Positions 9,457 to 60,783 of a DNA stretch of 64,000 bases are shown here, in pieces. Source of the DNA: Rhyzopertha dominica (Eukaryota > Arthropoda > Insecta > Coleoptera > Bostrichidae); contig QCXZ01000064.1 in NCBI GenBank assembly GCA_025024175.1, positions 56,317,325 through 56,381,324 of the forward strand. Reading direction: 5' to 3'. A program made the position numbers and the translations under genes. Position 1 is the first letter of the stretch. Every line of letters starts with the position of its first letter. Below the pieces are notes generated by a model that saw nothing but the letters and a program-made list of their open reading frames with translations, was not told the DNA's origin and did not search any database.

Positions 9457-9582
9457 ATTCATTTGTCTATTCATTTGTCTATTCATTTTATATTCATTTT
9501 ATTTCTACTTAACTACCAAGTTGAAGCAAATCATGAGAAAACCTAAGTTACAAACAACTGACTTAATCTAATTCTTCAAAGG

Positions 9583-10561: not shown

Positions 10562-10787
10562 TTTTTAATTCTTCAATACAAAATTCTGTAATTGAAAACT
10601 ACCCGAACGCTTTTGAAGTCTGCTGTCAAGTAAACAATATCTTTTAGTTACACGAAATTGCACAGCCACCTCAAATGTTACATTCACCTGTATACAATCT
10701 TCCGCAAACAATATAGATATAAACCAAGGTTCGGCCTAAATAGTTGGTATTTTTGTACTACACAATTTTTATTATTGAAAACAGTTC

Positions 10788-26400: not shown

Positions 26401-29400
26401 AATATAAACGGTGAAACGATTAAGTTTAGCGAGGTTTGCAAGAATCTGGGATTGTACATAGACGAGGACTTGAGATTTGTTCCTCATGTGAATAATTTGT
26501 GTAAATCGTCTTACTTGATTTTAAAGCAGCTATCCTAATCGCCACATCATGAGTGCTGAACTTAAGCTCATGTTGTGTAATTCATTGATCTTGTCCAGAT
26601 TGTCATACGCTGATGTGATTTATGGTTCGGCGCTTTTGGCTAGTGATGCTTCAGAGTACAAAGAATACAGAATTCGTGCATAAGATTTGCATACGGTATT
26701 CCTAAGCGTGATCGCGGTATCACGGCGGCATTAAGACATTCTAAAATGTTGAATACCAAATGTTTACACCGATACCATTTATTGTATTTGACACATAAGC
26801 TCCTAGTAGAGAAGCAACCTAAATACATTTTCTGTAATTTTCGCTCCTTGCATCGCTCCAGTTTACGTCGTTCAACTAGACATGAGCATGTTTTGTGTGT
26901 GCCCCGCCACTCCACTTCCCTGTTTCAATGTAGTTTTATATACAATTCGTGCACTCAGTATAATGCCCTTCCCATTTACTTCAAAGACTTAACTCTAATT
27001 AACTTCAAGAAAAGACTGAAGGAATATCTGCTGTCCTGACCTTTGTATTTGGAATGTTATTCTTGTCTCTTTTTGTTACTATATATCAGACTGCCTTGGA
27101 CTAAGTTGATCTTAATGAATTTATGGTTTCTTTTAATTAGTTGTATTTGCAGAATGTATGGGTTTATAAAAATTATTTCCTTTTTTGTAATTTGGATCTT
27201 GAGTAACGAAATTTATTTTGTGAGCGTAGTCATGCTGCGTCAAGTAAATATGTGCTTGAAAACTGCAGGTTAGGTTGAAAAGCAGCTTATAGCTGAACCT
27301 CGCCTGTACAAAAGCGTGTAATTGTAATTTATTTCTAAATTAAATAAAAGACATTTATTGTTATTATTATTTTTATTATTATTATTAATCTCTATCTACT
27401 ATACACCTTGTAGATGCAGAGAGAAGAAAGGTCAATGAAAGTAAAAAATACTCATGTACAATACAGCTTGTCCCGAGACACCTTAACAATCAAATATGTT
27501 TTTTTAAGAAAACAATTCAGCTTCAGCAGTCTAAAGTTCGGTAGCTTTTGGTGCGAGGATCTCGGTTATGCATGAAGAGCAAACTGTAACTTTGGAAAAT
27601 GATCTTGAAACCAGTTGGTTTATGAAACTCAAATCAGAGAATCAGCACGTATGTACGTATTTCGAATATGGAATACCCGACCACTTGAACTGGCGTACGC
27701 TTCACAGAGTTACAGAGTGCTGTAATAATAACCGCTTCTGAGTAGCATATTACTGAACATTTGTTCCTTCTTTTTGTTCAAATTAAATTAATGTTAATTG
27801 CTTTTAACAGCAAGGGCAGGTTGCCTGAGTAAGATGACCGAATAGTTTCTAAACCCTCTGTCATAAGGTAAATTTACAAATTCTTTCTCTCTTTTTTCCA
27901 GAAATCCTTGGACGCAAATAAATATGCTACAAAGAAAACTATCGCCCAAGGCTTACTAGATGTTGCTCTACTAACTGCTAATGCTTCTCAGCTGAAATAT
28001 GTGCTGCAGGTTGGCGAAAAGCATGAATTTTACACATTGATGCTAACTCTCATCATCATCTCCATGGTACTACAGGTAATTAACAAACAATTTCTTCTCT
28101 TCCTCCTACAGATAAGTATAGAATTCTACATATTCGACCAAAATTTTTAAAAATAAACCAAGAAAACTGTGGTAATTAGTAATATTCTGCTCTGTTAATT
28201 ATTTATACAGGTAACCGTCGGCTTGCTATGCCTCTCTTTACATTTATGGAGGGATTGTCGCCTGCATATGAGAGAATACCACTATTCAGCAAACATTTTG
28301 AATTACATAACCACCGCTTGCGCGTTTCTCATCACAGTTTTAAACCTTATAATTTCTTGTTTCGATCCTTCCATAGCTCGATATGCTGTGTTTGAAGCTC
28401 CAGATCCTTCTGTTTTAAGCAATGCAGTCACATAGATACAGTGTGTGGTTTACTTCTTTAAATTAAACTTACAGTGCGCACCTTAATTTTTACTCATTAC
28501 ATCCTTTTATTTTCAGCTTATTGTGGCGATTCTTTTCGTGATAATAGGTGGACTTAATATCAATAAGCAAAGAGATCACACTGCCGCTATTATTTTAAAC
28601 GACGTTATTTTGATTTTAATTTTTTTAATTTCTTTACTTAATATTATTATTTCTGGATTTGGCATTGAATATTCGAATCAGCCGCTCAGGTTACTTAATC
28701 AGGATAAACCTACATCTCTAATGGCAAGGAACGAAATTTAGCATAATATCACTATAATAGCTCAACTTATTATCTATAAAGAAAGCTAGTTAGTCAAATT
28801 TAGATTGTGACAAATGTTACCCACGTTTTTCAAAATCAAATCTTGATGAACAAAAAATACCAAAAATTGACGTTCAATTAATGTCTTGACATTATTAATC
28901 TAAAGAAAATTAATCGAATAGGTATGCAATACATCTATTACTTAAAGAAAATGTTATAAAACTTTCTGCATGTTCTCGAATATGAAAAACTATATGAATA
29001 AATGATATAAAAAAGATCCAGGGAAACAATAAAGGCATTTATCAATTTTTTGATTAACCACAAGGAAATATTCTACTTTAGATTAAAATTGACAGTAGGA
29101 AGTCAAAATTCAAGATCTAAACTTATGTGGTTTCAACCAATAACAATTGAGTAGTTTTTCTGATTAAGTACCTAACTTGTAATCCAAATTAGTTGTTTGG
29201 ACTGTACATCTTCAATATTAGTGCTAGAAAAAAGCAATTTCGTCGTACTTTTTCGCCATTTTATTTAGCATGACATTTTATAAACACTTCTAAAGTAGAC
29301 ATCACTAGGATAGCAAGCTTTAGGATTTTAAATATTTTAATTATGACAACCTTCAATTAATTTTTTTACTAAAACAAAAAAGAATAAAAGTTAATCTTCA

Positions 29401-31134: not shown

Positions 31135-32619
31135 ATACCATTATGTATTCAGTTAGTTCATAATGAAGTTTTGTATACTGTACCTACTTAGATAAAGTTT
31201 ACAAGGTAATATAATTATTACGAATGTAGGCAATAAGATCAATAAAAATTTAAGTTTTCGTTCTATTATTTATAATATCCACCCTCTTCAAATAGTAATA
31301 ATAATAATAATATTTTAGTTTGCACATTATAAATTGTTTAACATATAAATAAATCTGTTTTAGGGATTACAACAGTTAATGTACAGCCAAATACCATCGC
31401 AAGAATTTAGTCAAAAAGCTTCAAAACTGTTTATGCTAGCTTTAACGGGATTCATATTTATTACTACGGGAAAGGTCGAGTAAATTGGACAGAGTTATAC
31501 AGATCGCATCATATCAAAAATTTACCAGTACATAAAGTACCCGAATATTCACCTACAAATTGTAACTTTTGCTACTGTTTGGTGAACCCAAACACATTTG
31601 TTCGGGTAAAAAATAAAACCTCCAACTTTGCAGATGGCCCACCTTACGTAATACATACAAACAATAATAAATATGTATAATTAATGAAGCACGAGCTGTT
31701 GCTATTTCGTTGGCTTTCTCATCATGTCAGTTTGTTGCGTGTAGGTGACAATACCCACTTTTTCTCCAATTTTCTTAAAATATAATTTTTCTCGTAATTA
31801 TATTAAGTATGATGCAAGATAACAACTTTAGATGCACTCACTGAGCACTAAAACCAAGTCGACATAGCCTATAAAAATTAAACGTTAAAGCTATATCTCG
31901 TTCCATTCTGATATATTAGCAGAACTCAACTTATAACTGATGTTCAAGAGAACTAATATGCTCTAAGCGACACCTAACTGTTTTGAATCCATCTGACTTN
32001 CTTTTAACTGANAGGATAAAAGGTAGGTATGAAGATTTCTGGTGAAAGATTTAGGTATANAACTAATACTTTTCATAAAAAATTCAATCTCTGTCAGGAC
32101 AGATGATTATGTATCATGATCCATAGCCATCTGTTGTACAGATCATCCCAGATATCACCATTAAAGGGACATCCACAGATAGCGTCTCTAACACTTGTTA
32201 AATTGAATAATTCAACTCTGGCCAATGTGAGTCCATAATCTATCGGTTAGATACCTTTAGGGTATTTAATCCTCCCGGATCGTACTTTACAAAAAAATAT
32301 ACCGCACCCAAGGTCCTACGATGTCGGAAAAAAGACTTTTGACGTGGGCAGGTTTATCTTAAATACGTAGTAGTGGAGGTAGCTAACTGTGAACTAAAAT
32401 GAATATGGCAAAGATTAATAATTCAAAATAATTTTTGGCATTCAGTTACTAAACGTCACTTTTTTGACACTGACGCTGATTATCACGTTCAAATCCATTG
32501 TTATGCTTACCGATGTACTTTGTTTGAGAACCACAATATTTGTCGATGTATTATATTTTGCACAAGAATATTCATAGCTATTTTGTTATATTTTCGATGA
32601 ATTCAGCAACAACGTTAGT
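31135..32619. other. Intergenic, ninjurin to ERMP1, left part
   Basis: No gene is seen. Several N bases near 31999-32060 mark assembly uncertainty. Confidence 0.45.
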
Positions 32620-34476: not shown

Positions 34477-34506
34477 ATGGACATTTTAACGGCACTCAAC
34501 GTCTAA
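34477..34506 (+). promoter_or_regulatory. Upstream ORF in the ERMP1 leader (predicted)
   Basis: A nine-codon frame (MDILTALNV then stop) begins in a strong context (A at -3, G at +4) and ends 53 nt before the ERMP1 ATG at 34560. If transcription starts before 34477, it would be met first by scanning ribosomes and could reduce ERMP1 translation. The transcription start is unknown. Confidence 0.35.
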
Positions 34507-34559
34507 AACCTCACCTCCAGTGCTAGATATCCACCGAGATAGCAAACAGCTAAATCGAC

Positions 34560-37500
34560 ATGTCCAAGGTACCGGTATTCATTCATTATCGGATCGATTT
34601 TTTCATCTTTCTGAATTTCAGAGTGCCCCACTGCTACGAAAACGCCTGAAGGAAGCCAGGGTGCTGTCGAATTCCACAGAAAACAAGTATGACAGGTCCA
34701 AACACCTCTTGCCGATGCGCACCTCACATTTCACCCTGCTCCTTGGTTTGATTCTGCTTGTTTTCATCGGTGTGATAGTGGTGGAAAAGAACTTGCCACA
34801 GGGCCTCAAAATATCTGAGGAGCACAAGTACCCTGGGAAATTCATTGCCGAGAGGGCACAGAAGTTTCTCCGAAATTTGACGAGCTTGGGACCTCGGATC
34901 GCAGGTAGTTACGAAAACGACGTTCTGGCTGTCAACCTGCTCAAGGGGATAGTGCAGGAGATAATCGATAACGCAAAGGAACACCATGTCATAGAGGTGG
35001 ATGTGCAAAAGGTCAGTGGTGCATTCAATTTGGAATTTCTGGATGGCATGACTAACGTTTATGAGGACGGAATTAACGTCGTCGTTAAAATCGGATCTAA
35101 GATCAAATCGCCTTACAGTTTGTTGATTAACTGTCATTTCGATACTGTGGCTGAAAGCCCAGGTAAGTCAGCAAACTTTTTTTAAAGAATAAGTAAAGTA
35201 TTTAATAAGCAAAATATATTTCCGACTACTAATTGCTACTACAGGTATTATAAACCATCATGTTTGTTATAATTTGATAAACTTCACAGAAATATCTGCA
35301 TAATTTTGGTTTTTGTTGAACTACCTTAATTCTCTTTAGTTATGATATTGTAAAATTTGTTTCTTGGTGAAGATATCATCATTCAGCATGAAATCGTATC
35401 TACTTTAAACAATTTAATATACTGCTTAATCTCAAGCATGTTTATGACTTTGAAATACTGATTTATATAGTACAAGTAGTTAAAGGTTAAGAGGCTTATT
35501 GAAAAGATAAGCATTAACAGCTACTTAAGTACAAAACACCTGAGATAATGCACAATTACGATAATGGTGTTTAGATGAAATTAGCTATACAGCTATGTTC
35601 CAAAATTTACATGTTTGAAGTGACTTTCGACATATGTTGTGTTCTATCTTCTAGAGTACCTTTAGGTCATTTTACAAATATTTTTTTTACTTAAGTTCTG
35701 TGTTAAATAAATGATCACCTCTGCATAGGTTGTCTTGTATTTTTGGATTACATTGTGTCTGACTCCAAGGTTTTTGACTTGTTTTGATTTATGTTAATTT
35801 TCTTGTTCTGCTATGAACTCGTCATCTTTTTCTTTCTTATTTATTATAATTTTCAACTGCTTTTTGCGACATTTCTGCCTTCTATTGTAGATTAATTCCA
35901 CCTTCTCAACATATCACATTCTGTCAGTTTTAACATTTACAGAAAGAAAAAACTAAAATCTGCCCTGAAATGATTGTTGTAAAGTTCCCAAATATGCATG
36001 TTTAAAGAAGAAAATCAGGAAAGGGTTAATAAAAAAAGAGTAGGTAACAGATCCGTTTTTAATTGATCCATAGAAAAAATTCTTAAGTTAAAATTCATGT
36101 ATGCATGGGATAAATTATCGAATTAATGAACAATAGTTTCCTTGAGTCAAAATAAGGTGAAATAAATCACTTTACCTTAGAGCAATTTTGTCTTGTTACC
36201 AAATTGTAGCCCTTTGAAGTTATTATTCTTTACTCCATTTCTTTCGACTGCACGCTGAACAAAATCTAATGATCATAAAATACTTCTAATCTAGTAAGTG
36301 TAAGTCATGAATTTGATTGTTTAATTCATGTTAATTAAATAAAACCTAACATACAAAACAGGACAAAATATAATATAAAGTGTATTAATACTAAAAAAAA
36401 AATATCAATATTAAGGTCAATATAAATAACTAACCACTTATTAACTGCAATTCGAAATGCCCTCCTTTGATTTCTATCCATTTTAGCACTTTTTAAATAA
36501 ATAGGTAGATATTTATTTGTCTTAATATTGTTATAGTTTTTTTTATTATTAATACTGATCTTCATACTGTATTTTATGCTGTACTTAAAAGATTTTACTT
36601 TTTTATGCTGACTGTTAAATTAATGAAATACCTACTCTTACTAAGTCAGAAGTATTTTATGATCATGATTTTGTTCATCATGCAGCGATAAATTTAATTC
36701 AATTTTTCTCTGAAACTGCTCATTTTACGTCAAAATGTTTTATAATACTTTGTATATGAAAGAAATTGCTTTACATCATTTAAGTATTAACAAAAGCATT
36801 TGTCTAAACTATATTTCAACTGCTAATACTTTTATGGTTTTATATGAATATGAAGGTGTTTAATACAAAAGTTGATTAAAGTTTACACATCCTTTAAGTA
36901 CTGTTTAATTGGCTGCCTCAAATTCAATAGTCTTTGCTTACTTTAGTTTAGTTCCCTCACTGACTCGAAGAATGAATAAATTTATAAGTGCCAATTGGAA
37001 TTAAAAATTAAAATTCTGAGGTGAACAACCTGAAAACAAGTCATCAATGATTATCAGTCAGAGCTGTGAATCATCTAATTTTCTTGCAGAAGTGTGATAT
37101 ACTTAATCTTCAGGCAATGTAAATTCCTACTTGCTCCATATTCCGTTTTATATGCATACCAACCAATTTTTCCAATTATACCTTTTATGGCATAATCTTA
37201 AACTTTATTATGTATGCGGTGACTCAATGTTTTCTCTTTGAACTCTGAAGTGGTCTATTTTAAATATTATGTACATCGAATTACATGTGTGTTAAGGTTT
37301 ATAATTCCCCTTGAAGTTTATCAAATAGCCAAAGCACAGTTATTTAATAACAAGCAATTGCTATTATGAGTCTATTTTTAAATGCCTTCCCTGATCAAGG
37401 TTGACACTTCAATCTAAAAATTTATGATGAATGTCTGCGTCACTTGTGTGTAACAAAGTTCTTATATAATTAATAACTTCACCTTCTAAAACAGGTGCCA

Positions 37501-40500
37501 CTTATAATGCATTCTGAGCTAGCATATTTATCCACAGCTTAATGCAAAATACATATATATCTAAATAATTTTCACAATAAAAAAATTATTTGGATAAAGT
37601 AGTTTCCAATTTGCAAGGCTTTTAACCTTACCAAACAAAAGCTTTAGTACTTCATGGGGGGAAGGCATTATAACTAATTTTGAGAGGTAATATAAAATAT
37701 AAGTGAAATAACAGCATGGTTGTAACTGTAACTAGTAAGTAGAATATATACAGGACACTTTCAGAACTTCTTTGTGCTCCTGAAATTCGTAATGTAGGAT
37801 GGTATCAACCATAAATCCAAAATTCGCTGGTTTGCTTTCTTTAGCTCTGCAGCTGGCTTAAATGATGTCTGACAGGCTTCTATGGTTTTGACAGATCCAG
37901 TTTTCGCGATAATGCATTAGGTATTGGACACAGATTCTGTTGTATTCAAAATTTTTGTCTGTACAGTCCTTAACATGCAAAAAGAAGTCGAATCTCCTTG
38001 GGGGTTACACAAACACTTGTTCTAAAACTTCTATCTTCAGTTTATGTTTCTTAAAGGCTATCTGGTATGTTTTCAATTAGTTAAACATAATTTTTAGTGG
38101 TTCAAATGGCATGGTTCAAAGATGGTAAAATTGGAATAGATGATCAGAATGTGCTTTTTCTTGTAGGGCACAACATTTGTTCTGCTTATATCCAAATTTC
38201 TTGCTTTTGCTTGAAATGTGGGGTTTAAAGTGGATGGTTTAAGTTATTAAATTGTTTCTCAAGTTTGCATTCTTTATGAACCATTAAGAAACGTAATAGA
38301 GCCATTATGAAGCGGAATTTTTTATTTTCCATTGTTGGTATCACTAAAGACTCTAAGAATTGGCAGTTGGTAATCTGCTGCCCAACGCCAAAAAAAAAAA
38401 CCACGACGAAGATGCATACCACCAATTTATGTCATGGAAGCAAAAAAACAAATGAGTTCTGAAGGCATTTACAAATTCATGCCAGCACCAGATGAAAAAT
38501 ACTTATTCACAAAATTAATTTTTTAATGCAAACTTTGTACCTATTTTTATTTATTTCTAACTATATTTAACAAGAGGTCGTGTGTTCTATCCGTGCGAAA
38601 GCTCTTCCTTGCTCGCGTCACACTCACATGAAAACAACACTTTTTAGAAAATATCTACAGGGGTAAAAACTGGCAATCTTGCCAGGCAACCAAACAGCCC
38701 TTTTGTCCAACGATTCCCGGAGTATCAGCTCACATGCTTTGTTTTTATTACTAATGTTACATCTTCCAATAGCTCATTTAAATTTTTGTCCAGAAAATTA
38801 TAGATTTGTCCCGCTTACTTTAAAAAAATTTGGACTAATTTCAGCAAGAATGTATCAATTTACATCCAAGTAACAATAGTTCTTTTCTGTTTATTCATTT
38901 ATTGTTACACTTTTATTCCAGATAGGAGCAGTGTTGTGATTGATATAAATTAAAACTCGCAATAGCTATAAAACTAGTGAAGATAGGAATTGAGAATGTA
39001 ACAGGCATTTGTTAATAATAAAATTATAACTCCAAAACTGTAATAAAAATTTGGGAGTTCAATCTGAAAACATGTAGTTGTGTCACTCTAGGAATAAACT
39101 AAACTCAACAGCTTGAACCACATATGTCTGAATTTTTATGTCTTATGTGTAATCGCATCTTTTTAAACAATTTCTACAAAAACTTTAATTGGGAAACATT
39201 CATTTTACACCTTACATGTGATACATAATCACCATCTAAAATAAATTGATTGGGAAAATCTGATTCCATTCTACCAAGTTCTTTCAATCCAGATAGTAAT
39301 AATGGTCATAATAAATGACTGAGCAGAGTTCTTCATGTATAAGATAGACATACCCTTTTTTAATACCTACTATATTGATTTTCTACACACAATTATTAAG
39401 AAATTGTAAAGTTTAAATCTAGAAGGAAATATGCTAACTTGAGATACCCTGTATAAGATTATTTAAGCAGTTTAAAAAAAGATTCACATATGTTATCATT
39501 ACATTTCTGTGTACAATCTTTAGGAGCCAGCGATGATGGTGCAGGTTGTGCAATAATGCTGGAGATGCTAAGGGTTCTTTCCCAATCTGACAGCATCCTT
39601 AGGCATAACATCATCTTCCTTTTCAATGGAGGAGAAGAGAACTTTATGCCCAACTCACACGGCTTCATAACAAAGCACAAGTGGGCAAAGGAGGTAATTG
39701 CTTTTCACATGTGAACCTATTTTTAAGATAGTGTTTATTGCATTAGCGCAAACAATAGGACACTTATCAGATTATACAATAAATTATCAGTTTGCATTGT
39801 GTGTTTTCAGTAAATTGGGCAAATTGTGTGGTCATTTGGGTGACCTTAATTTTTGAGAATAAGAGTATCAAGGCAGTTGTTAACTGTGTTTCATTTGTAT
39901 TTGCTTGCTAATAAAGCTTTATTCGTAATTGGAAAGATTTGCTAGGTCATATAATTGATGTTGAATCACGAGATTTAGTGGCTCATTAAATTTTATGTTT
40001 GCGAATATTCTTGAGCTTAAAAGAATGGAATTTATCTCTATATTTGTTGAGCATATATTATGAAAGATCCATACAAACAGATATGAGATAAGATAACAAA
40101 GAACAGTGGTAGTCAATTTTGTCATTAATTAATTGTTACAGATATCAAAAATAGTTTTTGGAATACAGCAATTTGAGGTACCTACAAATAGAATTCTCTA
40201 TGTGGTTCTTTTTATGAATTTAAAAAGTATTTAGATAAATGGGTCATTTTTTTAATTTTTAATACATATTTTCTAGATAAAAGCTTTCATAAATCTGGAA
40301 GCATGTGGTGCAGGAGGACGAGAAGTTTTATTCCAGGCGGGACCAAACCACCCATGGATTTTAGAAACCTATTCGGAAGAAGTGCCATATCCTTATGCTT
40401 CTTCTTTAGCTCAAGAAATTTTCCAGAGTGGTATGTTTCCAGGCGACACAGATTATAGGATATTTAGGGACTTTGGCAATTTATCAGGCAAGTTTATAGA

Positions 40501-43500
40501 TCTATTAATAAAATACATCTGAGTGTACGTTTCTGTTTAGGTCTCGACTTTGCATGGTCGGCCAACGGTTATGTATACCATACGAAGTTCGACGCCATTG
40601 ATCAAATCCCACTTGGCTCCTTGCAAAGAACCGGCGATAATATTCTCGCATTAGCCAAAGGTATGGCACAAGGACACCAGCTGTCGGAGGTTGAAAAGCA
40701 CAGCCAAGGCAATTTGGTCTTCTTCGACTTCTTGGGAGCATTCGTTGTAAGGTGGCAGATGATAGTTGGTGATACAGTGAACATATTAGCTGTGATATTT
40801 TCCATTTGTACTCTTTATTGGAATTTCCAAGAAGCCAATAAAAGTTGTGGTAAGTTATTGGCTTTATTTTGAAGAAAATGGAAAATGAGAGAATGGAGTG
40901 TGTGAAATAATTATATAAAACTTACCAAATGTGTGTCAATGGGCATCTGTCACAGATTCATAATTTTTCTGGTAACTTAAAAATCATTGAAATAAAACAC
41001 ATTGGTAACTAATGAATTGGGGTAACTAAAAAATATCATTCTTTCTTTCTTGCATGTGATTTATTTATTGCCTTTGATTACCAAAAAGTTCAATGTATGT
41101 GGAGTGAATGATTAATAATGATAAAAGAGACAGTTCATTTCAAAAGAAGACACCAATCTATTCAAGAAAAAATGGTTATTGAACACGATTAACCTGTTAT
41201 TTACAAATTCAGGTTAGCTTAATTTAGTTATTTTGAAAAGAACTTAATTAACAATGAGAATCCATTTGTATTGTCAAACAAGTGGTTTGATTTATATTCC
41301 ATCCTTAAGAAAAGTATGCCCCCTTGGAGTAAGTAAACCAGCTGTGCATAGAGTGCATAGAGTGAAACATTTTATTGACATTCATATTTTGATTACTGCT
41401 GTTTAAATGGTTTTTGTTTTCTTTTCAATTGCCTAAAATGGTATTATTAACCTTTTTTTCTCTTAAACTAACATTTTTTGATATATGTTTTTGGTTTTTT
41501 ATGGAACTACTTGAATAGTAAATTTATTACGCCCTTACCAATCCAGAAATGTGACATATATAAACTGTTTTTTTATACAGCATAACATTTTATGTATTTC
41601 ATTAAAATAAAATTACTAAGGTTCTCCATATTTTGTGCAAGAACTCATTTGAAAATGAAAAATTTGAAGGCCAGAACCGAAAAAATTTTACTAACAGTGC
41701 TATTGGTTTCTGAGTTTTCAATTTATACTCCTTTAACAGGCACATACAATCATATTCCAGTCAGAGGCTTTAATATATGAGGGTCGTTCAATAAGACCTT
41801 AGAAAAACATACACAAAACAAATTATTTTAGGAAAATTTTTAAAATTTTTATTACACAATCTCCTTTCAGCTCTACACACGTTTGTCAAAACTTTTTTAA
41901 GCCATCTAAAAAGTAAGATTTCTGAAGGTCCTCAAAATAGGCATCTGTTTGACATGAACCGTTTTTCGCAAAGCCATTTTTTTAAGTCTGGAAATAAAAA
42001 ATGTCAAATCTGGTGTATATGGTTGGTTTTTTAATAATTCGAACTTTAATTCCATGATTTTAGCGATCATAATTCTACAGGTGCATCCATGCATTGCCTG
42101 ATGAAGGAGGATCTTTTTTCTCAAATAAGTTGTTTCTTCTTGATTTTTTCACTAAGCCAGTGCAATAATGAAGTATAATACTGTCCAATTATTGTTTTTC
42201 CATTTTGCAAGTAATCAATATAAATGGTCTCCCCGTTATATGGTACTTTTTTGTGTTGTGCAGTTTTCTGATTGGTAACTTTTTTACCAAAAAACCACAC
42301 TATCTTGTCATACTACATAATATCTCTTTAAAGGTCTTTAAAAACTCATTTTTATCCCTCCCAGTGGCCATATTTATTCTAAGCCTATATCATCGGCATC
42401 TGTGTGTTGTTGCTGGCGTGTATCTCAGATCATCATAAAGTGAATGATTTTAAATGCAAGTTAAGGAAAAATATAATGTTGACTTTTTGGCTTCTTTCAC
42501 ATCACTCATTTTTGTGACTGGATAAGAATATTTTCTTTGCAGGAAAAAAAGTGTATTATTGCCTTGAAACTTGACACATATACTGTAATTGGATTACTAA
42601 CAACTATAACTCCACAAAGGATTCTGAGCAACCATTTCAGTAATAACCTTATTTCTGCAAGTGAATTCAAGTTCTTACAGATTGCATTAGACGTAATACA
42701 AAAATCGTACACCTGTAAGCTGCCGCCACCTACTGGCTACATTTGGAACTTCTGTATAAAAAGAACCTCTATTGTAACGTGAAAGATAGCAAAGATCGTG
42801 ATCCTTACTGGAGTTATCAATAATAACAACACTGGCACATTTGACAGCAGGTCAGTGCTGCCAAGTTGCACTACAGAAAGTGTGCATTTATTTAATTGCT
42901 GCACCTTCTATATCATTATTAATTTGATATTTCTTTCTTTTTTTCAAAAATATGTAATATCCATATGGGATGTTTTTCACTAATTATAAAATAAAATATA
43001 TATTGAATATCAGCATTACATCAATTTATTAAAGAAATTTGAATGAGTATAATGTATGTTTCTTTTATATTGGACCTGCAAGGTAAAATCTAATTACAAG
43101 TGTTTTATTAATATGAAATGCTTCAAGTAGCGTTTTAACATTTTGTTTTAATTTGTAATTAGGTGAAGCAGGATCAAATTAGCATGTCTTTGTTCTACAT
43201 CAGGTTAAAGATTTATGAAAAAGATTTCATTATAACCACCTCATCTTTGATACCTTTTTATATCTGTAGTATTCAAATAAAATATACTGGATTCCAAAAA
43301 TCTTTTTTCTACACCTTGTAGTATATACATTAATAATAACAATTTCAGATTTAACGCACACACAGTATTTCCGCAAGCTGTTGCATTGCATGACGGCAGC
43401 TCTTGGAACCCTACTGTTACCAGTTGTGTGCTGTGTTCTCATTGCGCTGTGTTTGACTGCCTTGGATCGCACCATGAGCTGGTTTGCGCGACCTATCTGG

Positions 43501-46500
43501 GTGTTTTTCTTGTACGTAATACCCACTTTATTAGTGTGCTTTGGCACGATCCTTCTGCATGCGAAGAGATATCAGAAGGTTGGTTAAATGTTATTTTGGA
43601 CTTGTCCGTAAATAATGTTGTTTCTTTTAGGACATCTCTCTGTCGCCATGGACAATATTTCAACTATATTACGATGCATATCAGCTGCTGTGGACTTTAT
43701 TGCTGATAGTGGGGATATGCCTGAGGGTTCGTTCTAGTTTTATACCACTCCTGTGGGTCATTTTTCCTGCCGTTGGGAATCTGCTGAAGTCTAAGATATT
43801 CAGTAAATGGAGGGGTAAGTACTATTGCAACTTGTATTACTATAACTTATATATAGTGCGCCCTAAATATGTTTCCTGATTTTTATTTGTAATTTGGAGG
43901 ATGCTTATAAATTTCCTCTCTTCTCGATTGTTTTGGTATCATGGTAAACCTTCAGTCCTTGTTAATTCACCTGACAAAGCTGGCAATATATATATATATA
44001 TATATTGGCCTGCTATCCCAATAATTATTTCTTATATTCATCAGAGATAAGGTCCCATACTAAGAAAATTATGTTACTGTATTTTAAACATACTACTCTG
44101 TTTTACCCATTTATGTTTTTAATTGTAATATTTACTTATACTTTTTATTTTGTTTATGCTTTGATTACAATTCGTTAGGATCTAAATTCAAGTAGCATGA
44201 AAGTTTTTTAGTTAATAGTTTTTTTGCTTCTTTTATGAAATGTTTTTTACTTTGCTGTTTTGCTTGCTCTTCTAAAATCGTAGCTTATCAGATTCAAATT
44301 AACATTTCGTTTACCTGCTACAAGGTGTTCGATTTTTAATGTCCTTGCTGGGTATCCTATCATAATGGGGTCTTCTCAAACATTAGACACAAAACTTAAT
44401 TTAAAAAAATCGGTTTTCGAAGTTTTTGTAGTTTTTCAGTTGCAACCCAAAACTGAAAATTTGTTCAAAAAATACAGAATTTTTGGATTGATTATACTCA
44501 AGAAAGTGTCGGTTGCAAAAACCCCATCTCAATAGGTCCAAGCATAAATGAGATACCCCACTTGGTGCATCCTGCACTTGTTATGGGTTTTAAGACTGTA
44601 AGAAAGTTATATGAATTGTTCTTCAAATGTGAGTAAAAATTATGAATTAGTAATGAATTATTTGTGTGGTCACTGAAGGAAACACAGATGCTTCGTCAGT
44701 TTTTCTAGCACCACTATAATAATAGTGGTAAACTATGGAAATGCTTCTTTGGGTCAACCTCCATCTTACTTGCTTGCCAGAAAACTAATGTTGTTTGCAC
44801 ATTATTGTTAATAACAAACATACATGTTCAGTCTACAAAATAACTGCAATAGTTCTTGTAGATGTGTATGCTGTATCAAAAGTCCTGGAGTCTCCTAAAA
44901 AGTATTTGAACTTCGTTACCTTGACATCAAGAGTAAGTGTGAACACTAGTAACTTCGTAATATTTTAATAACTCTTCATCTTTTTGCTTATGAAGTAAAT
45001 ATCTCTGTGTATCTAATAAATTCAAGGTTTTTGGGCATAGTATTAACTTTCAGATCTATTCCATATTTCAGGCCTTCTTTTCAAGTAATATTATTAAAAA
45101 TTTACTAATTTTAAACTTCTATGAGAAAAGGCCACTTTTTTGTAATGGTTGTGTGGCCACAAAAAGTGAGGAACTACCCTTTGTTGAAGAGTCAAATCAA
45201 TCAATTTATCCCAAAAATTTTTATGCCCAAATCTTCTATACATATAAAGACATCAATGTGATGCCATAACAATTTTAATTTCATCCCACCTATGTACCTG
45301 TTAGCCAATCAATAAACTCTTATACTGGCAAGAAACACAAGAGCTCATTATCACTATAATAATTTGCAGTACTTTGTTTTTATTGATTGACAAAGCAGTT
45401 TTGCCAAATCTGATGTTTGTGATCATTTGTGCATGTGATGAAATCAGTGGTAAAATTAAGGTTGTAAAAGGTCAAAAAACAATCTGTCAAATACCACACT
45501 AGAGTGATAATAAATTAGAAAATAATTCATCAGAACTTTTATTCTTGTACTTTTGCCATTTGGCAGTAGCCAAGAGAGCTTGAGTTCTTGATGTTCTGGA
45601 GAATTATTCCTGTGATATTATAACTGACAATTCATGCTACTCAGTTGTAGTTTTTCCTTCAAATGCTTATTAAAATTGTGTGAAAAATTAATGAAGCTTT
45701 ATATTTTAAGAGAATATTTTTTAGTAACAAAATGTATCCTTAGTGTTACTATAACAGTTATGTGAACAACAACTATATTAAACAGATGTGCTATAAACAG
45801 CACACAGATTTGTAGAAGAGGTTTGGCTTCACAAATGGAAACTTTTTGAAGCACATGTTTTGATTGCAATTAGTTAAGAAGAATCTCAGAATTTACTATT
45901 TTAGTTTACTTCCTTTTATATTATCTGTACAATTAATTCCAAAGGCATAAAATAACAGAAAATTTCCGCAAATCCTCTACAGGTTATACATTGAGAGTAT
46001 TTAGTACCAATTTGGTCAAATGATAACTTTAATATTGGGATGTAGGAACAAGAAAAATCATCCTGTAAAAAAGATTTTCGCTTGGAATCAATTTACTTAT
46101 GCTTTTAACCCTTACTTGCAAGCACTCATTTTATCTTTAGCTATATGAGATTCACAATTCCCCAAATCATTTTAGGACCCAAGTGGCTGCTGCTTCACAT
46201 TGCCGTGATGGGTCTGCCGTTTGTGCAAAGCTACTACCTCATAATCAGTGCTCTCTACCTGTTCATTCCGATAATGGGTCGTGCCGGTGGTGGCGTCAAC
46301 TCGGAAGTGTTCATAGCGGCGATCGTCAGCACATTCCACGCTCTGCTGTTTTGTTTCGCTTCACCTCTAGTCGTACTAGTCAGAAAAGTGGACAGGGTTT
46401 TCAGTGTGCTGTGGGGACTGTTCCTGATCTCGGTCGCTGTACTTTTACTCACGCCAATGGGATTCCCGTATTCTGGTACCAAGGGCAGTTTGGCACCTCA

Positions 46501-49500
46501 AAGGTTCATGCTTGCGGTAAGAAAACTATTTGATTATTTGAACTACTGCTACGAATATTCCGAGTGTAAAAATGTGGAAGGTTTTCTGCTAAGAGCTTTC
46601 TGTTCATAATATTTTTGGGTTTTCTGGCTGGGTTCGCCAAATGGATAATCTATACAGGGTGGCCAATTGGGGCGATAAAGTAAAATAACTTGTTTATTGT
46701 TAAAGTTAGAGAAAAACCGTTAATACATAGAATGTTCCTTGTAAAAATCCAGACATATACAGGGTGTCCCATTTACTTGGTACAGCACTTTACTCTGATT
46801 TTTTAAATGGAACACCCTATATATTATTGCATTTTTGGTTTCTACATCAAATTCTAAAGTGACTATTAAGTATACATGTGGTCTAGGATAGGTCATTTTG
46901 GAATTATTTGGCATTTTGTGAAAAAAATTACATTTGCAAGGCTCTTGAAAATAAATAATATTTTTAAAACTAAAAAAGATGTAGAGATGGGGTTTTCACA
47001 GTTTTGTAGGACAGATCTACTACTATCTCATAAGGTAAAGTTTGATAATTTTTTCAAAAATTGTGAAAATAGTGTTTTTTTAGATAAATTCGAACATGGC
47101 TAACTTGATTTTTTAAAATAAAACAGTATATTTATTTGTATGTCATTAAATTTAATGCATCTCTTAATTTCCTTTCAGTTGANATATGAGTGCCTCTACG
47201 TGTCATTAATACTTTTTGAGAAATTTCGAAAAAACTGGTTTTTTATTGTTTCTGCGAATATCAAGTTAGCTATGACTCTAACGATGCTCCAGCCTGCATA
47301 TTTGCCATACACGGCTCCATGTGTCTTTTTCATATTTCCAAAAATAAAGAGAACCTTAAAGGGCCGTCGTTTTACAAGCATAGCGCCATCACTGAAAGAG
47401 CTAAAGGGTAAATCTAAAATTTCTAAAAAGACCAATTTTTGTGATTTGTTACAAAACTATATAATTTTAATATTATCCAAACAGGTAGTACGCTTGTTAA
47501 GTAATAAATGGTTGGCCAAGTAGAAATTTGTCGTAACTATGTCAGTGTTCTGATATTTTTTAAATTGTTTGNGATGCTCTTTAGCACTAACCATTAAAAA
47601 TCTCCCAGTTTGTTCCACATAAATTGCAGTACAATCATTATAAGTAAATCTGTAAACACCAGAAAGATTTAAGGGTTGAAGGGTTATGGACTAACTGGGA
47701 TCCTAAGCTACCTACAGTTGAAAAAGAAATATGAATTCTATGAGACAGAAATGATTTAGAAATATTCACTGAGAGGGACCAAATGCCTTGAATGCATAGA
47801 AATATTTTGCTATATTCTGAATTCAAATGAAAGTTGATTCAAACCTTTTGCCTTCAGCACACAAAACGTACATTCCACGGCTACACCGGTCGAGTAATCG
47901 AAGAAGTTTCGGGTTTCTGGATCGTCGACATGGACATGAACAGTCCCCACACAGTGGATCGTTACGTTCCTAGGATGAGGAATGCGCATTTGACCACAAA
48001 AGACTGCCAAGACTACTTATACTGTGGCTTGCCGTACTTAGTTCCTGTTTTAAATATGATTTGGAAGACGCACTTTGTGCCGGGTCCTGAACCGGAAATT
48101 CCAAATCCAGTTTCAATGAAAGTCGTTTCGAAAATGATGATACCCCACGGAAAACGAATTAGGGTCAGGGTTGAAGGTAAGAAGTTGTCTTTTTTAATTG
48201 TAGTCAATTATTTTACACTTGTTATTGAAGGGTTTTGGATTTTTGGAATATAGTAATAAAACAAAATACATTTATGAAGTCAATTTGAATACCTCCAATT
48301 AGGTATTATCACTTTTTTTGAAAATTACGTAAAATGAATCTTGAAGTGCATATATATCGTACGCCATGTTAAAAAAGACAAAAAAATTATTTGTAGGTAG
48401 AGAATTTCAGGTTTGAAATTCGAATCTTAGGAGTCACCGCCAAAACGCCTCGTATCCAAGGTTATTCAACTTGTGACGTCAAGTGTCATGTAAACATTAC
48501 CGAAGAGCGTGCTGTTTAATGGTGTAATATCATCCTTGTATTGGAAAAGTTTTTGTGTGGTGTTTATTGAAAGGACGCTGTAAGAGGTCGCACCAAAAAG
48601 TGATTTGTGTAGTTTTACAAGCACCTATTATGTATGGAAAACAAAACATGTGCTGTCTTCTACATGGTTATAAAAGTACTTCAGTCAGTACAGCTAACAA
48701 AATTTTTGTAACCTTTCCTCGAGATTATCAACGTATGAAAAAGTTGTTTAAGGCCCCTAGTCGTGATATGCCGAAATCGCAAAGTTTGTTTTGCTGTTGT
48801 GAAGATCATCTTAATTCTTACTATAAATTTTATTATTATTTTTGGGGTTATAAGTGTTTACCATTCAGTTTTCATTTTGTTATAGCTTGAAGAGGATATG
48901 AAAAATTATATGCATTTTAAGTTGATAGAGAGAAATGTTATAATAAAGAACGATGTTGCGTTCTCCATATATTCGACTGTTAGCCAGACCGGAAACGAGC
49001 CGCAAGAGCCCCGAAAATAAATGGAAATTTATATTTATTCTGACCTCTAAAATAAATGTCAAGTTTAGGGTACATTTTTATGTTTACAAATAGTATGTTT
49101 CCAACAACCCACTGTGATCAAATTATCAATGCTAAGTTAATTTGATAAAAAATTTACTTATGCTGTTGCTTTTACGTTCCTCATATCCGCCGCGTTGAAC
49201 CGCTCGTCGCTATACACAAATTCCATAACAATGAACATGCCTTCAGAAGTCATAACTTATAAGTATTTCACTTTTTCTTGGCGTATTTTAATTCGCTTGT
49301 CACAAAATGAACGCAAACAACAAACTGATAAATTGACGGGCTGAGGCTGACGCGTGACTCGTTGACCCCATATGTAAACAACAGCCATTTACAAGACACC
49401 TGACGTCACGGCCAATATGTTCGCGTTTTGGCGCTCCCTTTAAATATTCACATTTGTAATATTAAAAAGACACTTTACGATCAATTTTTTCGAATTTATA

Positions 49501-50710
49501 AGCTGTCACAGCTGTTTTGTGGATTAGATGCTACCTCTTAATACGCAATTTAATAAAATATAAATACATGGCAAATACCCAATTGTTAACCGGCACTGGA
49601 ATTGTACTGTTATGTCAGGAATAAAATTTCAAAATATCTTTATTACGTTTTACATTCACTTTAGAGATTTAAATGAATAACTACGAGCTGCTTCATTTGT
49701 CCGTTACGGATCTAAAATATGTATAGACTTTGAATGAATTGTTTTCAGGCCCTACGCACATGGGGGTGATGATTTCACCGGAAAAGAACGTAGAATTAGT
49801 GAGCTGGAGTTTTGAAGGAACAAAACCATTAGCTGGTTCAAAATGGAATGGAAGAGAAACTTATTTCATTTACTATGCCTATGGGAGAACCCCTGTGCCT
49901 TTAGAATTCGACATGGACTTCAAGGTAATTTTATTTTTTCATGAGCTTTGCACAAAACTTATTTATGACACTGCATTAGTATTTAGAGCTGACATTTTTT
50001 TTTGCTTTTGCCCCCAGAATTGTGATTCTTAGGAAAAGTGATGTGCTAAATTTAAAGCAATATAACAATGGGAACCTTGCTGCTATTGAAATAATAGTTT
50101 TCACATTTAATTATAGTCTGATAAACACTATTAGTTGTATAAATATTATTTAATATTTTTTCAGAATTCTTGTACAATTCTTGACCCAAGAAACATTCTT
50201 TGGTCTACTTTTAGGGCATCATTATATCAAGACATTGTTCTTGTTTTAAAAATATTCCATAATATTCTAAAAAGACTGAAAAACAGTCATGCGCATGAGA
50301 TTAAAATGTTGAAGATGAACTCAAATGTGGCATATATTCCCATTATCCAACTGGTTTGATACTTTGCACACATATTTTTTTTGCCAAGAGTCATTATTTT
50401 CAGGTGTAAGATAAATAAAAATTGGAAGTCAGAAAATGGGTACTACTTTATCTACATAATTTAAGAACTGTCAATTTAATTAGATTTAGTAACTTTCCAA
50501 GCTCTTGAAACAGTATTCATATCCTTTTATTGCATCATTTTGCAGATTCCTTCCAATCACTCTCGTCCCATAATGGACATAGCAGTGACGTCACATTATC
50601 TTTTCGGTCCATCGAAGCACACGCCAGAACTACAGGACTTCGTTGACCAGTTCCCTCCGTGGGCGGCTGTATCATCTTGGACGGCTACATACGAGTCGTG
50701 GGTTGTGTAA
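34560..50710 (+). CDS. ERMP1: Endoplasmic reticulum metallopeptidase 1 (ERMP1), M28 family
   Basis: This is an ER-membrane zinc peptidase. Eleven coding exons: 34560-34568, 34622-35162, 39524-39693, 40277-40487, 40541-40849, 43349-43578, 43631-43814, 46176-46516, 47858-48176, 49749-49924, 50546-50710; 884 aa (human about 900). All phases join. Exon 1 codes only for MSK, the acceptor before 34622 is excellent, and the alternative ATG at 34715 would lose a basic, dileucine N-terminus. Residues 40-56 form the first membrane helix. The M28 domain has H175 and D177 (HFDTV), D187 (SDDG), E221 and E222 (GGEEN), E248 (INLEACG) and H324 (YHTKFD), so all metal and catalytic positions are kept. Membrane helices follow (about 385-655), then a C-terminal luminal domain. 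Intron 4 is GC-AG. Introns hold a THAP element and Penelope relics. The first AATAAA after the stop is near 51883. Confidence 0.93.
35163..39523. other. ERMP1 intron 2 (4.4 kb)
   Basis: AT-rich intron. On the minus strand at about 37750-38430 there are runs of protein-like sequence ([46 protein letters not shown]) with stops between them. It is probably a decayed transposase of a type I cannot name. Nothing else is evident. Confidence 0.45.
40850..43348. other. ERMP1 intron 5
   Basis: Apart from the mariner relic at 41777-42125 this intron holds AT-rich sequence without recognisable features. Confidence 0.45.
41777..42125 (-). pseudogene. Mariner transposase 3' fragment with terminal repeat
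   Basis: On the minus strand it reads MAKI-like [20 protein letters not shown], then [18 protein letters not shown] and a final KSFDKRV-like piece. This matches the end of SETMAR-type mariners (the pattern HPPYSPDL around the third catalytic residue). The element's outer end is GAGGGTCGTTCAATAAG at 41780-41796. The 5' half is missing or unrecognisable. It lies in ERMP1 intron 5, antisense to the gene. Confidence 0.7.
43815..46175. other. ERMP1 intron 7
   Basis: AT-rich intron with a (TA)n microsatellite at about 43986-44006. No other feature is supported. Confidence 0.5.
46517..47394. other. ERMP1 intron 8, left part
   Basis: It contains two short fragments with CAGGGTG-type ends, near 46656 (ACAGGGTGGCC) and 46757-46822 (ACAGGGTGTCCCATTT to AATGGAACACCCTATAT, inverted). 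The second is a tiny 65-bp TIR element. An N occurs at 47163. Confidence 0.5.
47395..47830 (-). pseudogene. Penelope-like element relic (GIY-YIG endonuclease end)
   Basis: On the minus strand it reads [20 protein letters not shown] and RFLMVS. This is the GIY-YIG endonuclease signature of Penelope-like retroelements (GVYKF.C..C..VYIGQTGR in active ones). The further C-terminal part at 47395-47480 resembles the tail of the relic at 55650-56100 (a shared stretch around TTTCTAAAAAG). Stops and the changed YVEQTG mark decay. It lies in ERMP1 intron 8, antisense. Confidence 0.65.
48297..49584 (+). mobile_element. THAP-domain element, copy C, in ERMP1 intron 9
   Basis: The ends are AATTAGGTATTATCAC and GCAAATACCCAATT. 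ATG 48630 opens a continuous THAP frame: [40 protein letters not shown], then CCCEDHLNS. After an AT-rich gap of about 70 bp that looks like an intron (donor lost, TATAAA instead of GTAAGT; acceptor TTATAG), [17 protein letters not shown] and NEPQEPRK then stop follow. It inserted in the same orientation as ERMP1 and does not touch its splice sites. It is about 90 percent identical to copies A and B. Confidence 0.8.
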
Positions 50711-57956: not shown

Positions 57957-58134
57957 ATTAAAAATCTTCCAGTTCGATTTAATTAAAAAGCAGCACAATC
58001 ACTATAAGAAAAACTATAATATTTATTATGCACTAATTTGGACCCTATAAGCTAAACGCTGTTAAAAAAGAAATATTAATTCCATGAAATAAAAATATTT
58101 GTTGGAACTGGACCGATAAACATTGATGTCGAAT
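57957..58134 (-). pseudogene. Penelope-like relic split by the hammerhead retroelement
   Basis: The minus strand reads KYYSFSYSDCAAF then LNRTGRFLMVQ, a decayed GIY-YIG end similar to 47573-47690. Upstream sequence shares HGINISFLTAF-like residues with that relic. The same relic appears to continue at 58721-58790, on the far side of the insertion at 58135-58720. Confidence 0.55.
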
Positions 58135-58262
58135 GTAAGAATTTAGGATGGCAATGCCATCTGTCAGCATTACACTGACATGATGACAAAGCCACCTAGC
58201 TGCCTTAACGGGAACTACTACCATTGCTTTGGTATATAAGCAAAACCAGTTCTATGCCGTGT

Positions 58263-58344
58263 TGTCTACACTAGACCTAANCTGCACTGATGAGCTGTAA
58301 TGACAGCGAAATAGTACTATCTGCAGTTGGTTGAGGTGTAGACA
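58263..58344 (+). ncRNA. Type I hammerhead ribozyme, copy 1
   Basis: Core CTGATGA is at 58287-58293 and GAAA at 58308-58311. Stem II is GCTGT/ACAGC (58294-58298 with 58303-58307, loop AATG). Stem III is ATAG/CTAT with a 2-nt loop, the very short stem III typical of Penelope and retrozyme hammerheads. Stem I is ACTGCA/TGCAGT (58281-58286 with 58322-58327; 58281 is N here and A in copy 2). It is extended past an internal loop by TGTCTACAC/GTGTAGACA (58263-58271 with 58336-58344). The predicted cleavage is after the ATC at 58319-58321. Confidence 0.88.
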
Positions 58345-58615
58345 GCACAGCATAGACATGCATTTTAATGTATGTTGGTTCTTGCCCGTCAACAAAAAAG
58401 TGCCGTGGGGGCCTGCTGTCAAATTGAAGTATGCAGTTGCATGCCAATTTGTTAGGCTACAGGTCACTTCCTTTAGGAAGTAGTTCCCGTTAAGGCAGCT
58501 AGGTGGCTTTGTCATCATGTCAGTGTAATGCTGACAGATGGCATTGCCATCCTAAATTCTTACTTTCATCATACCATTGCTTTGGTATATAAGCAAAACC
58601 AGTTCTATGCCGTGT

Positions 58616-58697
58616 TGTCTACACTAGACCTAAACTGCACTGATGAGCTGTAATGACAGCGAAATAGTACTATCTGCAGTTGGTTGAGGTGTAGACA
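58616..58697 (+). ncRNA. Type I hammerhead ribozyme, copy 2
   Basis: This is identical to copy 1, shifted by 353 bp, with no ambiguous base. The core CTGATGA is at 58640-58646 and the predicted cleavage is after 58674. All conserved core positions are present, so it should be catalytically competent; a short stem III usually means activity is better as a dimer. Confidence 0.88.
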
Positions 58698-58722
58698 GCA
58701 CAGCATAGACATGCATTTTAAT

Positions 58723-59370
58723 TGATGTCGAATCATTGTTCAATAACGTAGCAGTACCTTAAGCTATAAAATTTTTGGAATATTTTCTTGAAAAAAAAAA
58801 TGAATTTGATAGGGCTGTCATAGACGAATGCTTGAAGTTAACAAAACTGTGCAGCGAACAAGACACTTTTGAAACTTCATAAAAAGCTAAATTTAACTAT
58901 TTTGCTAATTTGCAACAAGGAGAGTTTACCGTATGAAACAATTGGTCTAATTTGCCCTCTTTATGAATTTTAAGAAGACCATAAAGTCTCATTGTTGAAG
59001 GGTTTATATAAATAATCTGTGACATCTTGCAATTAAAACTTTTCAAGTTGATACAACTTTAACAAATCCTTGAATTTTGAATGACATTTAATTTTCTGAT
59101 CCCTTTTAGTTGAATACAATCTTCATCACTTAGAAAATTTGAAAGTTTATCCATGCACTCATTTTTATCAAAGTTAATTACACAATTTCTTCTATTAGCC
59201 GTAGAAAAAATAAGTTATATGTAACTCTCTCGCTCTTCATTTCTAAATGTAATTTAAATTTACCAGAACTGATGTTATAGGTTTCTGATTTGCTTTCGTT
59301 TTAATTTTCTACGGTTTTATTTAAAAGTAAATGTATACGTCCCATTAAATTGTTTTTAAATCCACAATTT
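58723..59370. other. Spacer after the retrozyme
   Basis: The first 70 bp or so continue the interrupted Penelope-like relic. The rest is AT-rich without a clear feature. Confidence 0.45.
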
Positions 59371-59829: not shown

Positions 59830-60783
59830 AAAATGTTCCCCATTTACTTCCTTGAGTTTTCTAATGTTCTTTGTAGCATATTTGGAGGTAAGTTCTAAAT
59901 TTCTGCCCTAATCGGTCCTTTCAAGTATTCTGCATTATGTGGCCGATCAGCATAAATACGATTTTTCAGATAACCCTACAGGAAAAAATCAAGCGGCGAT
60001 AGATCAGGGGAACGTGCAGGGTATTCTATCGCTCCGCGTCTACCAATCTATCTGTCTGGGAATATCGCATTCAAATATCCACGATCGTTGACTTTCACGA
60101 TTAGGGAACAGGCGAATAAATTCTGGTACAATGTGTTCGCGCAAGAGTTGTAAATACTTGGCCGCATTCAAATTTCCATCGATGAAAAAAGGCCCAATAA
60201 TGTGCTCACCGATAATACAACACCAGACATTCACTCGTTCCATCCAATGTGGATTTGTGTCCGACCAATATGTGCAATTATGTATATTCACATTACCAGT
60301 GAGGCAAAAAGTCCCCTCATCAAACATAATCCAATTTAAAATCTTTCTATCTTCATCTATCATGTTCAGAGCAATTTCGCAAAATTCTATCCTACGATCG
60401 ATATCATCTTCTCTCAGTTCTTGAAATAAGTGAATTTTGAATGGATGAAACTTCTCTTTTTTCGAAATTTTTTGAACAGACCTGCTAAATGGTGAATGAG
60501 AGCACTCTGTTGTACTGAACACTTGGGATTCTCTTGCACATTCAAGGACATTCAAGCTACTTTCCTCACTCGTAGCAATATTTGGTCGTTCTGGTTTTTG
60601 ACGATTTTAACACCATCGCTTTCGTCAAAACGTTGCAGTGTTTTAATAACTGTTGATCTGGCAATTGGTTCTCGATCTTCATGAATTGCATTGTAGAGTG
60701 CAACTACTTTGCCTTCTGTCTATATAACCAATCATCATTAAAATTTCGATGCGATCATGTTCAGTTAACTGAGACATTGCGAT
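59830..60783 (-). pseudogene. Mariner-type transposase, frame-broken, catalytic Asp deleted
   Basis: It starts MSQLTEHDRIEILMMIGY, shifts frame, and continues EGKVVALYNAIHEDREPIAR and STVIKTLQRFDESDGV. The long frame at 60555-60040 has FKIHLFQELREDDIDRRIEF, IMFDEGTFCLTGNVN (first Asp), YWSDTNPHWM and IIGPFFIDGNL. The usual block with the second Asp (QQDGAPPH) is deleted between SQRSWIF and IPRQIDW. The C-terminal part is in another frame: YPARSPDLSPLDFFL then a stop, YLKNRIYADRP. It therefore cannot supply active transposase, although its terminal repeats are well kept. Confidence 0.85.

Follow-up and report, generated by a model that had tools for sequence, protein, structure and literature searches.

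Very probably, the insertion at 58122-58733 of a 64,000-nucleotide stretch of Rhyzopertha dominica DNA (contig QCXZ01000064.1, positions 56,317,325 to 56,381,324; hereafter the window) is a non-autonomous retrozyme that was inserted by two-ended target-primed reverse transcription. Most dissected insertions of this family have two fixed starts that are used one of each, lie within a target-site duplication (TSD), and consist of arms that are nearly identical in sequence and run uninterrupted across the ribozyme cut. In the scheme we propose, a staggered break would leave 3' overhangs of about 13 nt, both of which would serve as primers for reverse transcription of the same retrozyme RNA, one at a position called site A and the other at site B. 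The template would most likely be a closed circle, formed by hammerhead cutting and host ligation and copied for as many as 6.7 rounds. Microhomology would then allow both ends of the cDNA to be joined, presumably by host repair. The enzyme was most likely of the Penelope type, that is, a reverse transcriptase with a GIY-YIG endonuclease.

Unit positions are given as u, with u1 = 58322, the first base after the predicted ribozyme cut. From left to right the window insertion is composed of an 85-nt inverted piece and 1.4 copies of a 353-nt unit with two type I hammerheads, and the 13-bp repeat ATTGATGTCGAAT is exact at both ends (Table 1). The original prediction, made from the DNA letters alone, had described two hammerheads 353 nt apart in direct orientation and an exact 13-bp duplication, and both the repeat (58219-58375 and 58572-58728, spacing 353) and the flanks were confirmed. 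It had also called the hammerheads identical. This holds over 58219-58369 versus 58572-58722 except for one undetermined base, an N at 58281 in stem I of the first copy, which is the sole difference. The inverted piece, given as 83 bp, is present and identical to the body but is 85 nt long. Its outer end lies at site B, matching the other two-armed loci. The proposed youth of the insertion and the 353-nt unit are both supported, 352 nt being the majority length in the family. Site A is uninterrupted in a second copy at 58364-58370, and u43-u46 have unpaired probabilities of 0.99-1.0 in the predicted fold. The monomer has a GC content of 0.431, a linear fold z of -8.4 and a circular minimum free energy of -134.7 kcal/mol. 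The longest ATG open reading frame (ORF) of the 586-nt insert, both strands considered, encodes 88 residues.

When the genome (479 Mb in 138 contigs) was searched with a 35-nt ribozyme pattern allowing up to 3 mismatches, 3,730 matches (1,921 + 1,809) were obtained versus none with the reversed control, and thus the further genomic copies that had been anticipated do exist. Sixty loci were dissected. The first 40 (the window insertion and 39 others) were chosen by similarity to a 515-nt array query (the best 40 of 1,769 candidates), whereas the further 20, all with an exact ribozyme match, are consecutive entries from the top of the C1 match list, one locus already in the set being passed over, and were not selected for length or arms. 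One or two of the 60 loci (L090 and L102) may contain more than one event. A duplication of at least 10 bp was found in 39 loci (29 in the first set of 40 and 10 in the further set of 20); the counts of ends and targets given below omit the other 11 and 10 loci.

Thirty-five of the 39 duplication-bearing loci are two-armed (8 of 10 in the further set), and in all 35 the BLAST ends place the inverted arm at B (u239-248) and the direct arm at A (u45-55), the 8 loci of the further set included. No A/A or B/B pairing was found among these 35 loci, a result not expected if each end took A or B freely. Over the first 40 loci, BLAST gave 39 direct arms ending at u46-u55 and 29 inverted arms starting at u239-u252. 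With boundaries defined by the duplication, both ends were recognisable in 26 of 29 loci, with direct ends at u43-u52 (u43-u47 in 24, u49 in one and u52 in one) and inverted ends at u239-u249. The three omitted loci are L035 and L047, which have no inverted arm, and L038, which has a poor outer match and is counted among the 35 by its BLAST ends. Hence the inverted 5' piece is not the unusual addition it had been taken for, but the second arm, with a fixed outer end, in 35 of the 39 loci.

These counts bear on a LINE-type (long interspersed nuclear element) insertion with occasional twin priming, in which the inverted arm would be accidental. The geometry of the window insertion fits such an event, its inverted arm having been copied from just upstream of the direct-arm start with 9 nt missing between, and a LINE-like reverse transcriptase piece is present in the window. 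However, inverted arms are found in nearly all duplication-bearing loci and begin at a fixed start of their own, different from the one used by direct arms; the positions at which the two arms end internally show no relation to each other, and the ends listed abut the duplication directly with no poly-A. We consider this explanation quite improbable. A one-off twin priming event, as the window locus alone might suggest, was overturned by the recurrence of the same two starts in 35 of 35 loci. L1 twin priming shares with these insertions the priming of two cDNAs from both target strands and the resulting inversion, but it is occasional and is not known to have the fixed second start seen here.

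The duplications are 10-17 bp in length, 13 or 14 bp in 28 of the 39 loci. AA occupies positions -3/-2 of the left flank in 22 of the 39 loci and TT positions +2/+3 of the right flank in 24, giving a roughly palindromic target, AAC-N13-GTT; the window insertion has the AAC and lacks the GTT. A staggered cut at such a target would leave 3' overhangs of 13-14 nt, the ends of which would serve as primers. The target bases next to the start match the RNA over a raw mean, chance matches included, of 2.3 nt at A and 1.5 nt at B.

The two arms of one insertion mostly share their variants. At 18 polymorphic sites in the first 40 loci, mismatches numbered 51/1,844 within the same arm, 12/1,371 when the two arms of an insertion were compared, and 24,450/128,679 between insertions; over all sites the mismatch rates were 0.66%, 0.77% and 2.24%, respectively (stretches up to 40 nt were excluded and 8 bases were trimmed per arm end). 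L017, with 4.8 units, has 0/1,288 differences within arms and 0/2,048 between arms, and L030, with 9.8 units, has 2/7,959 and 7/7,492. Arms, the longest of which reach 2,365 nt, cross the ribozyme cut uninterrupted 164 times, and of the 84 inner ends, 2 are no more than 5 nt from the cut (2.4 expected). The read-through together with the shared variants indicates a template that ran unbroken through the cut and for the most part had one sequence, that is, either a circle or a homogeneous uncut multimer. The same two-ended insertion templated by a linear multimer transcribed from a tandem locus is rather unlikely, though to be taken seriously: genomic arrays are homogeneous, and linear multimers of homogeneous loci would be so as well and could give homogeneous arrays. 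Against this, nearly difference-free arms of such length would demand an equally long undiverged source locus, and many ribozyme loci are solitary among the exact matches listed.

The inner ends of the two arms lie within 10 nt of one another in unit position in 2 of 42 cases versus 2.5 expected and thus are unrelated, whereas the junctions overlap by at least 3 nt in 21 of 42 cases versus 6% by chance. Together these findings suggest that the cDNA ends were joined by microhomology without fold-back. Hairpin self-priming, by which fold-back of the cDNA or an antisense RNA template would yield a head-to-head palindrome, is accordingly difficult to credit. The arms are indeed head-to-head, and the accessible text of PMC3846280 infers antisense-template self-priming from palindromes at inverted junctions, but here the arms meet at the same unit coordinate no more often than by chance, and fold-back predicts no fixed outer start at B beside the duplication. 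Note that the inner ends are non-uniform (Rayleigh p about 4e-4), a result given no weight because the loci were chosen to contain the ribozyme.

Both hammerheads have complete cores (CTGANGA and GAAA) and type I topology, being open at stem I. A scan with a type I descriptor found precisely these two motifs in the window and one match among 200 first-order simulated windows. One of 3,000 random zone pairs shared an exact word of at least 10 (a word of 12), and the ribozyme region folds far below its shuffles (z -7.9). The Rfam covariance-model scan of the window, which had been suggested as a check, gave no match at the gathering score, and beneath it (28.0 and 27.8 bits, E about 1e-4, versus a gathering score of 52) Hammerhead_HH9 was hit twice. 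As stem III (ATAGTACTAT) is self-complementary, the hammerhead could act as a dimer, by analogy with the dimeric action that the accessible text of PMC7229834 describes for amphibian retrozymes with a weak helix III.

Inherited variants number 3/1,999 site-insertions in the 50-nt ribozyme versus 72/8,979 in the 249 positions outside the ribozyme and outer stem I, and private variants are likewise rarer in the ribozyme (15 versus 138 outside). Selection on the ribozyme was considered and set aside, since the contrast between shared and private variants did not reach significance (p = 0.19). The two inherited changes in the core both fall on the cleavage-site nucleotide and are C to A, a change at that position that hammerheads tolerate. 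As a separate observation, three contigs of the viral collection (L001-L003) contain a hammerhead that agrees with the retrozyme's in its core and in the GCTGT/ACAGC stem II only, with different flanks and a longer stem III side; patterns from the retrozyme body had no match in GTDB or in the viral contigs.

On its sequence features the element is best classed as a metazoan non-LTR (long terminal repeat) retrozyme, which upholds the identity originally assigned to it. It is apparently non-coding and has a complete type I hammerhead, the 353-nt length and GC content given above, at least two ribozymes in direct tandem, many dispersed copies and a TSD longer than 4 bp (13 bp here and at least 10 bp in 39 of 60 loci). 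These properties agree with the accessible text of Cervera and de la Pena (2020, PMC7229834), in which metazoan retrozymes are non-coding elements of 170-400 nt with type I hammerheads and GC under 50%, occur as dimers to multimers, have TSDs of more than 4 bp when these are present, and co-exist with Penelope elements. The retrozymes of that text are tandem repeats, whereas ours are head-to-head with two starts paired one of each, and neither "inverted" nor "head-to-head" occurs in its main text. Plant LTR retrozymes are likewise non-autonomous and have hammerheads and circular RNA (a circle being only probable here), but according to the accessible portions of PMC7229834 and PMC7761336 they carry type III hammerheads within LTRs, a primer-binding site, a polypurine tract and a 4-bp TSD, whereas our element has type I topology and a 13-bp TSD. 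With an ORF of at most 88 residues the element lacks the frame for a telomerase-like reverse transcriptase plus GIY-YIG of Penelope-like elements; it shares with them an inverted arm on the 5' side, a 3' end set by a fixed start within the RNA, and a short TSD.

A second retrozyme family, with a 277-nt unit and its own hammerhead, has 395 ribozyme matches in the genome (control 0). It was first noticed by chance at L072:6110-6494, and five further loci (L105-L109) were chosen for adjacent opposite ribozyme pairs. In all five, one end lies at v40-42 and the other at v178-183; the duplications are 12-14 bp in four loci and 6 bp in L107. BLAST gave no match between the 353-nt and 277-nt units. 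Local alignment of the two connects site B, the hairpin that precedes it and the ribozyme, although 24 of 2,000 random window pairs scored as high as the B region, and some of these pairs possibly overlap that same region. In both families site A lies 41-46 nt past the cut and site B about 97-109 nt before it. In the first family site A sits in the loop of a firm hairpin, and in the second just beyond a weak hairpin's loop (folding as stable or better was seen in 8 of 200 shuffles). Among the matches listed for either family, close opposite-strand ribozymes were in minus-then-plus order wherever checked by eye.

Tentatively, and with somewhat less than even confidence, we suggest that two reverse transcriptases, perhaps the halves of a Penelope dimer on a double-strand break, may copy one circle together from the two starts in a two-headed, rolling-circle form of target-primed insertion. 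A and B, which flank the hammerhead, would be cis modules that both families have kept in comparable positions despite low overall sequence similarity, and would enforce one-of-each pairing. Proximity of A and B in the predicted circle was considered and rejected: the path is 32 steps, a closeness matched by 43% of random pairs and by 19% of pairs with equal spacing.

A search of the genome for GIY-YIG domains gave at least 144 matches (the best 150 of 2,080 candidates were scored), many of them as minus-then-plus neighbours. One Penelope family, L071, has an 826-residue ORF in which a YVDD motif was recognised by eye, the GIY-YIG assignment coming from the genome search; a Pfam scan of the protein gave nothing at 0.01. 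Its relatives include proteins of Drosophila virilis (34% identity) and Coccinella septempunctata (42%), and those named comprise many insects and also starfish, rotifers and Hydra. Copies of the family are mostly 94-99% alike. Twenty-eight GIY-YIG loci were analysed and 10 taken on, nine two-armed with both outer ends inside the stretch and L076 one-armed; other loci of the family, which run off the stretch or are one-armed, were left uncounted. In all nine two-armed complete loci the ends lie at p32-45 and p2774-2780, about 38 nt apart, and the duplications are 10-15 bp. The family agrees with the inverted pseudo-LTR (pLTR), and the tail on one inverted pLTR, that the accessible text of PMC3846280 reports for Penelope elements. 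It also agrees with the activity of a purified Penelope protein in vitro, which cleaves both strands, extends each of them and begins copying at a position within the RNA (PMC11167929). Because the L071 family has the same two-armed, one-of-each plan and duplication size as the retrozyme, a Penelope-type enzyme is the most likely agent. The Penelope-like mobilisation mentioned in the original prediction thereby gains structural support from this plan and from the ends of the retrozyme arms.

The shared anatomy could also mean that the element is a pLTR-derived miniature Penelope, that is, a deletion derivative of an autonomous element rather than a retrozyme, and a review proposes, in its accessible part, that Penelope-like elements gave rise to retrozymes as their genomes were reduced (PMC11722881). 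We think this improbable, given that the 34 GIY-YIG loci (8 clusters) share nothing with the element other than retrozyme pieces or weak matches, and that the retrozyme core is complete, whereas the hammerhead-like site before the L071 starts is non-canonical: stem II and GAAACGTC are kept there, but the CTGANGA side reads TTCGACAAA in most copies listed. The retrozyme differs further from Penelope-like elements in having no long ORF, in arms that pass several times round the 353-nt unit, in starts about 155 nt apart across the ribozyme (about 38 nt in the L071 family) and in a strict one-of-each use of starts not seen in vitro (PMC11167929).

Several observations weigh against two-ended insertion by a Penelope-type enzyme on a circle. 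Four loci have a single arm despite a duplication (L035, L047 and L097 ending at A, and L085 ending at B), a duplication of at least 10 bp is lacking in 21 of the 60 loci, the direct arm of L030 ends at u24, and the arms of L031 show 59 differences over 676 positions. Array similarity was the criterion for the first 40 loci and an exact ribozyme match that for the further 20, and the homogeneity of arrays could also follow from linear multimers of homogeneous loci. No sequence beyond retrozyme pieces and weak matches is common to the retrozyme and the 34 GIY-YIG loci, nor was the site-B motif common to both retrozyme families found in those loci. The L071 starts read differently from those of the retrozyme, and its target, with AC in the left flank and a weak signal in the right one, is only partly like the retrozyme's; for these reasons the L071 Penelope may not be the partner. 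Finally, the anole Penelope protein showed in vitro the same start site use on either strand and a preference for ATT (PMC11167929), unlike the one-of-each pairing and AA/TT flanks of the retrozyme insertions.

The accessible text of PMC7229834 and PMC7761336 deduces how animal retrozymes are mobilised from the Penelope elements that occur alongside them, from ribozymes common to both and from the tandem arrangement of copies; the former proposes that LINE or Penelope enzymes copy a circle that has been primed. Here the insertions themselves record the mechanism in their two fixed starts, roughly palindromic target, mostly 13-14 bp duplications and circle-like template. The thousands of genomic ribozyme matches thus offer a footprint of reverse-transcription starts, the Penelope hypothesis of retrozyme movement becomes directly testable, and the insertions would be a genomic counterpart to the both-strand extension by Penelope protein in vitro. 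The literature searched, in which supplements and most subscription papers were beyond reach, contained no report of head-to-head retrozyme insertions.

Table 1 Features of the retrozyme insertion, of the older copy and of the L071 Penelope. Positions are those of the window unless a locus is named.
Feature	Position	Strand	Details
Left target-site duplication	58122-58134		ATTGATGTCGAAT; exact 13-bp repeat
Inverted arm (site-B-primed copy), u242 to u158	58135-58219	-	85/85 identity to reverse complement of 58479-58563
Direct arm (site-A-primed copy), about 1.4 units	58220-58722	+	Ends at u46, plus 2 nt (58721-58722) common with the duplication
Hammerhead 1, predicted cut after 58321	58281-58327	+	CTGATGA at 58287-58293, GCTGT/ACAGC stem II, GAAA, stem III ATAGTACTAT
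353-nt monomer between the two predicted cuts	58322-58674	+	Repeat spacing
Site B (u239-u249), predicted start of inverted arms	58560-58570	+	Predicted single-stranded, unpaired probability 0.84-1.0
Hammerhead 2, predicted cut after 58674	58634-58680	+	Complete core
Site A (from u43), predicted start of direct arms	58717-58722	+	Loop of hairpin ACATGCAT-TTTA-ATGTATGT
Right target-site duplication	58721-58733		Exact 13-bp repeat
Older copy, hammerhead half	18207-18335	-	78% identity; core disrupted (no C3, GAGA in place of GAAA); 3' end at CATGCATTTAA, as in the young insertion
Older copy, inverted arm	19335-19420	+	87-88% identity over 19335-19410; nhmmer 19332-19420
Foldback element inside older copy, separate from retrozyme	18336-19308		
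L071 Penelope	L071:2507-4987	-	Open 826-residue frame; relatives such as L074, L077 and L078

A second retrozyme copy, older and broken, lies on the minus strand at 18207-19420 and is interrupted by the foldback element. It has the same order, an inverted body and then the hammerhead, and its hammerhead half folds no better than shuffles (z -1.0). A target duplication was looked for at this copy and not found. The sequence beyond its 3' end has no homology to the retrozyme body; continuation past that end was rejected, the weak alignment score of 16 being at chance level (reached by 180 of 1,000 random pieces). Inheritance of the young insertion's inverted arm from an ancestral copy is disfavoured, as the arm matches its own body at 85/85 positions and the older copy is 12-22% diverged. 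A possible third, very worn piece of retrozyme body is at 31707-31759 (nhmmer E 0.0076 to 0.098).

The foldback or MITE-like (miniature inverted-repeat transposable element) element has two copies in the window, 18336-19308 within the older retrozyme and 22634-23141, with ends like CAGGGTCCGCCA. A broken LINE-like reverse transcriptase occupies 25449-27039 (RVT_1 in one of four pieces scanned). Tc/mariner-like transposase pieces lie on the minus strand at 10214-10564, with weak Pfam matches under the cut-offs, and at 60040-60606, recognised by reading of the protein. Long repeats 86-94% alike (8321-12077 and 48296-49587) are common to several places in the window. Exons of a gene like endoplasmic reticulum metallopeptidase 1 extend over 34490-46609, with a Pfam ERMP1-TM match at 46109-46609; the piece at 34490-35185, which has no Pfam match, was assigned to this gene by reading of the protein.
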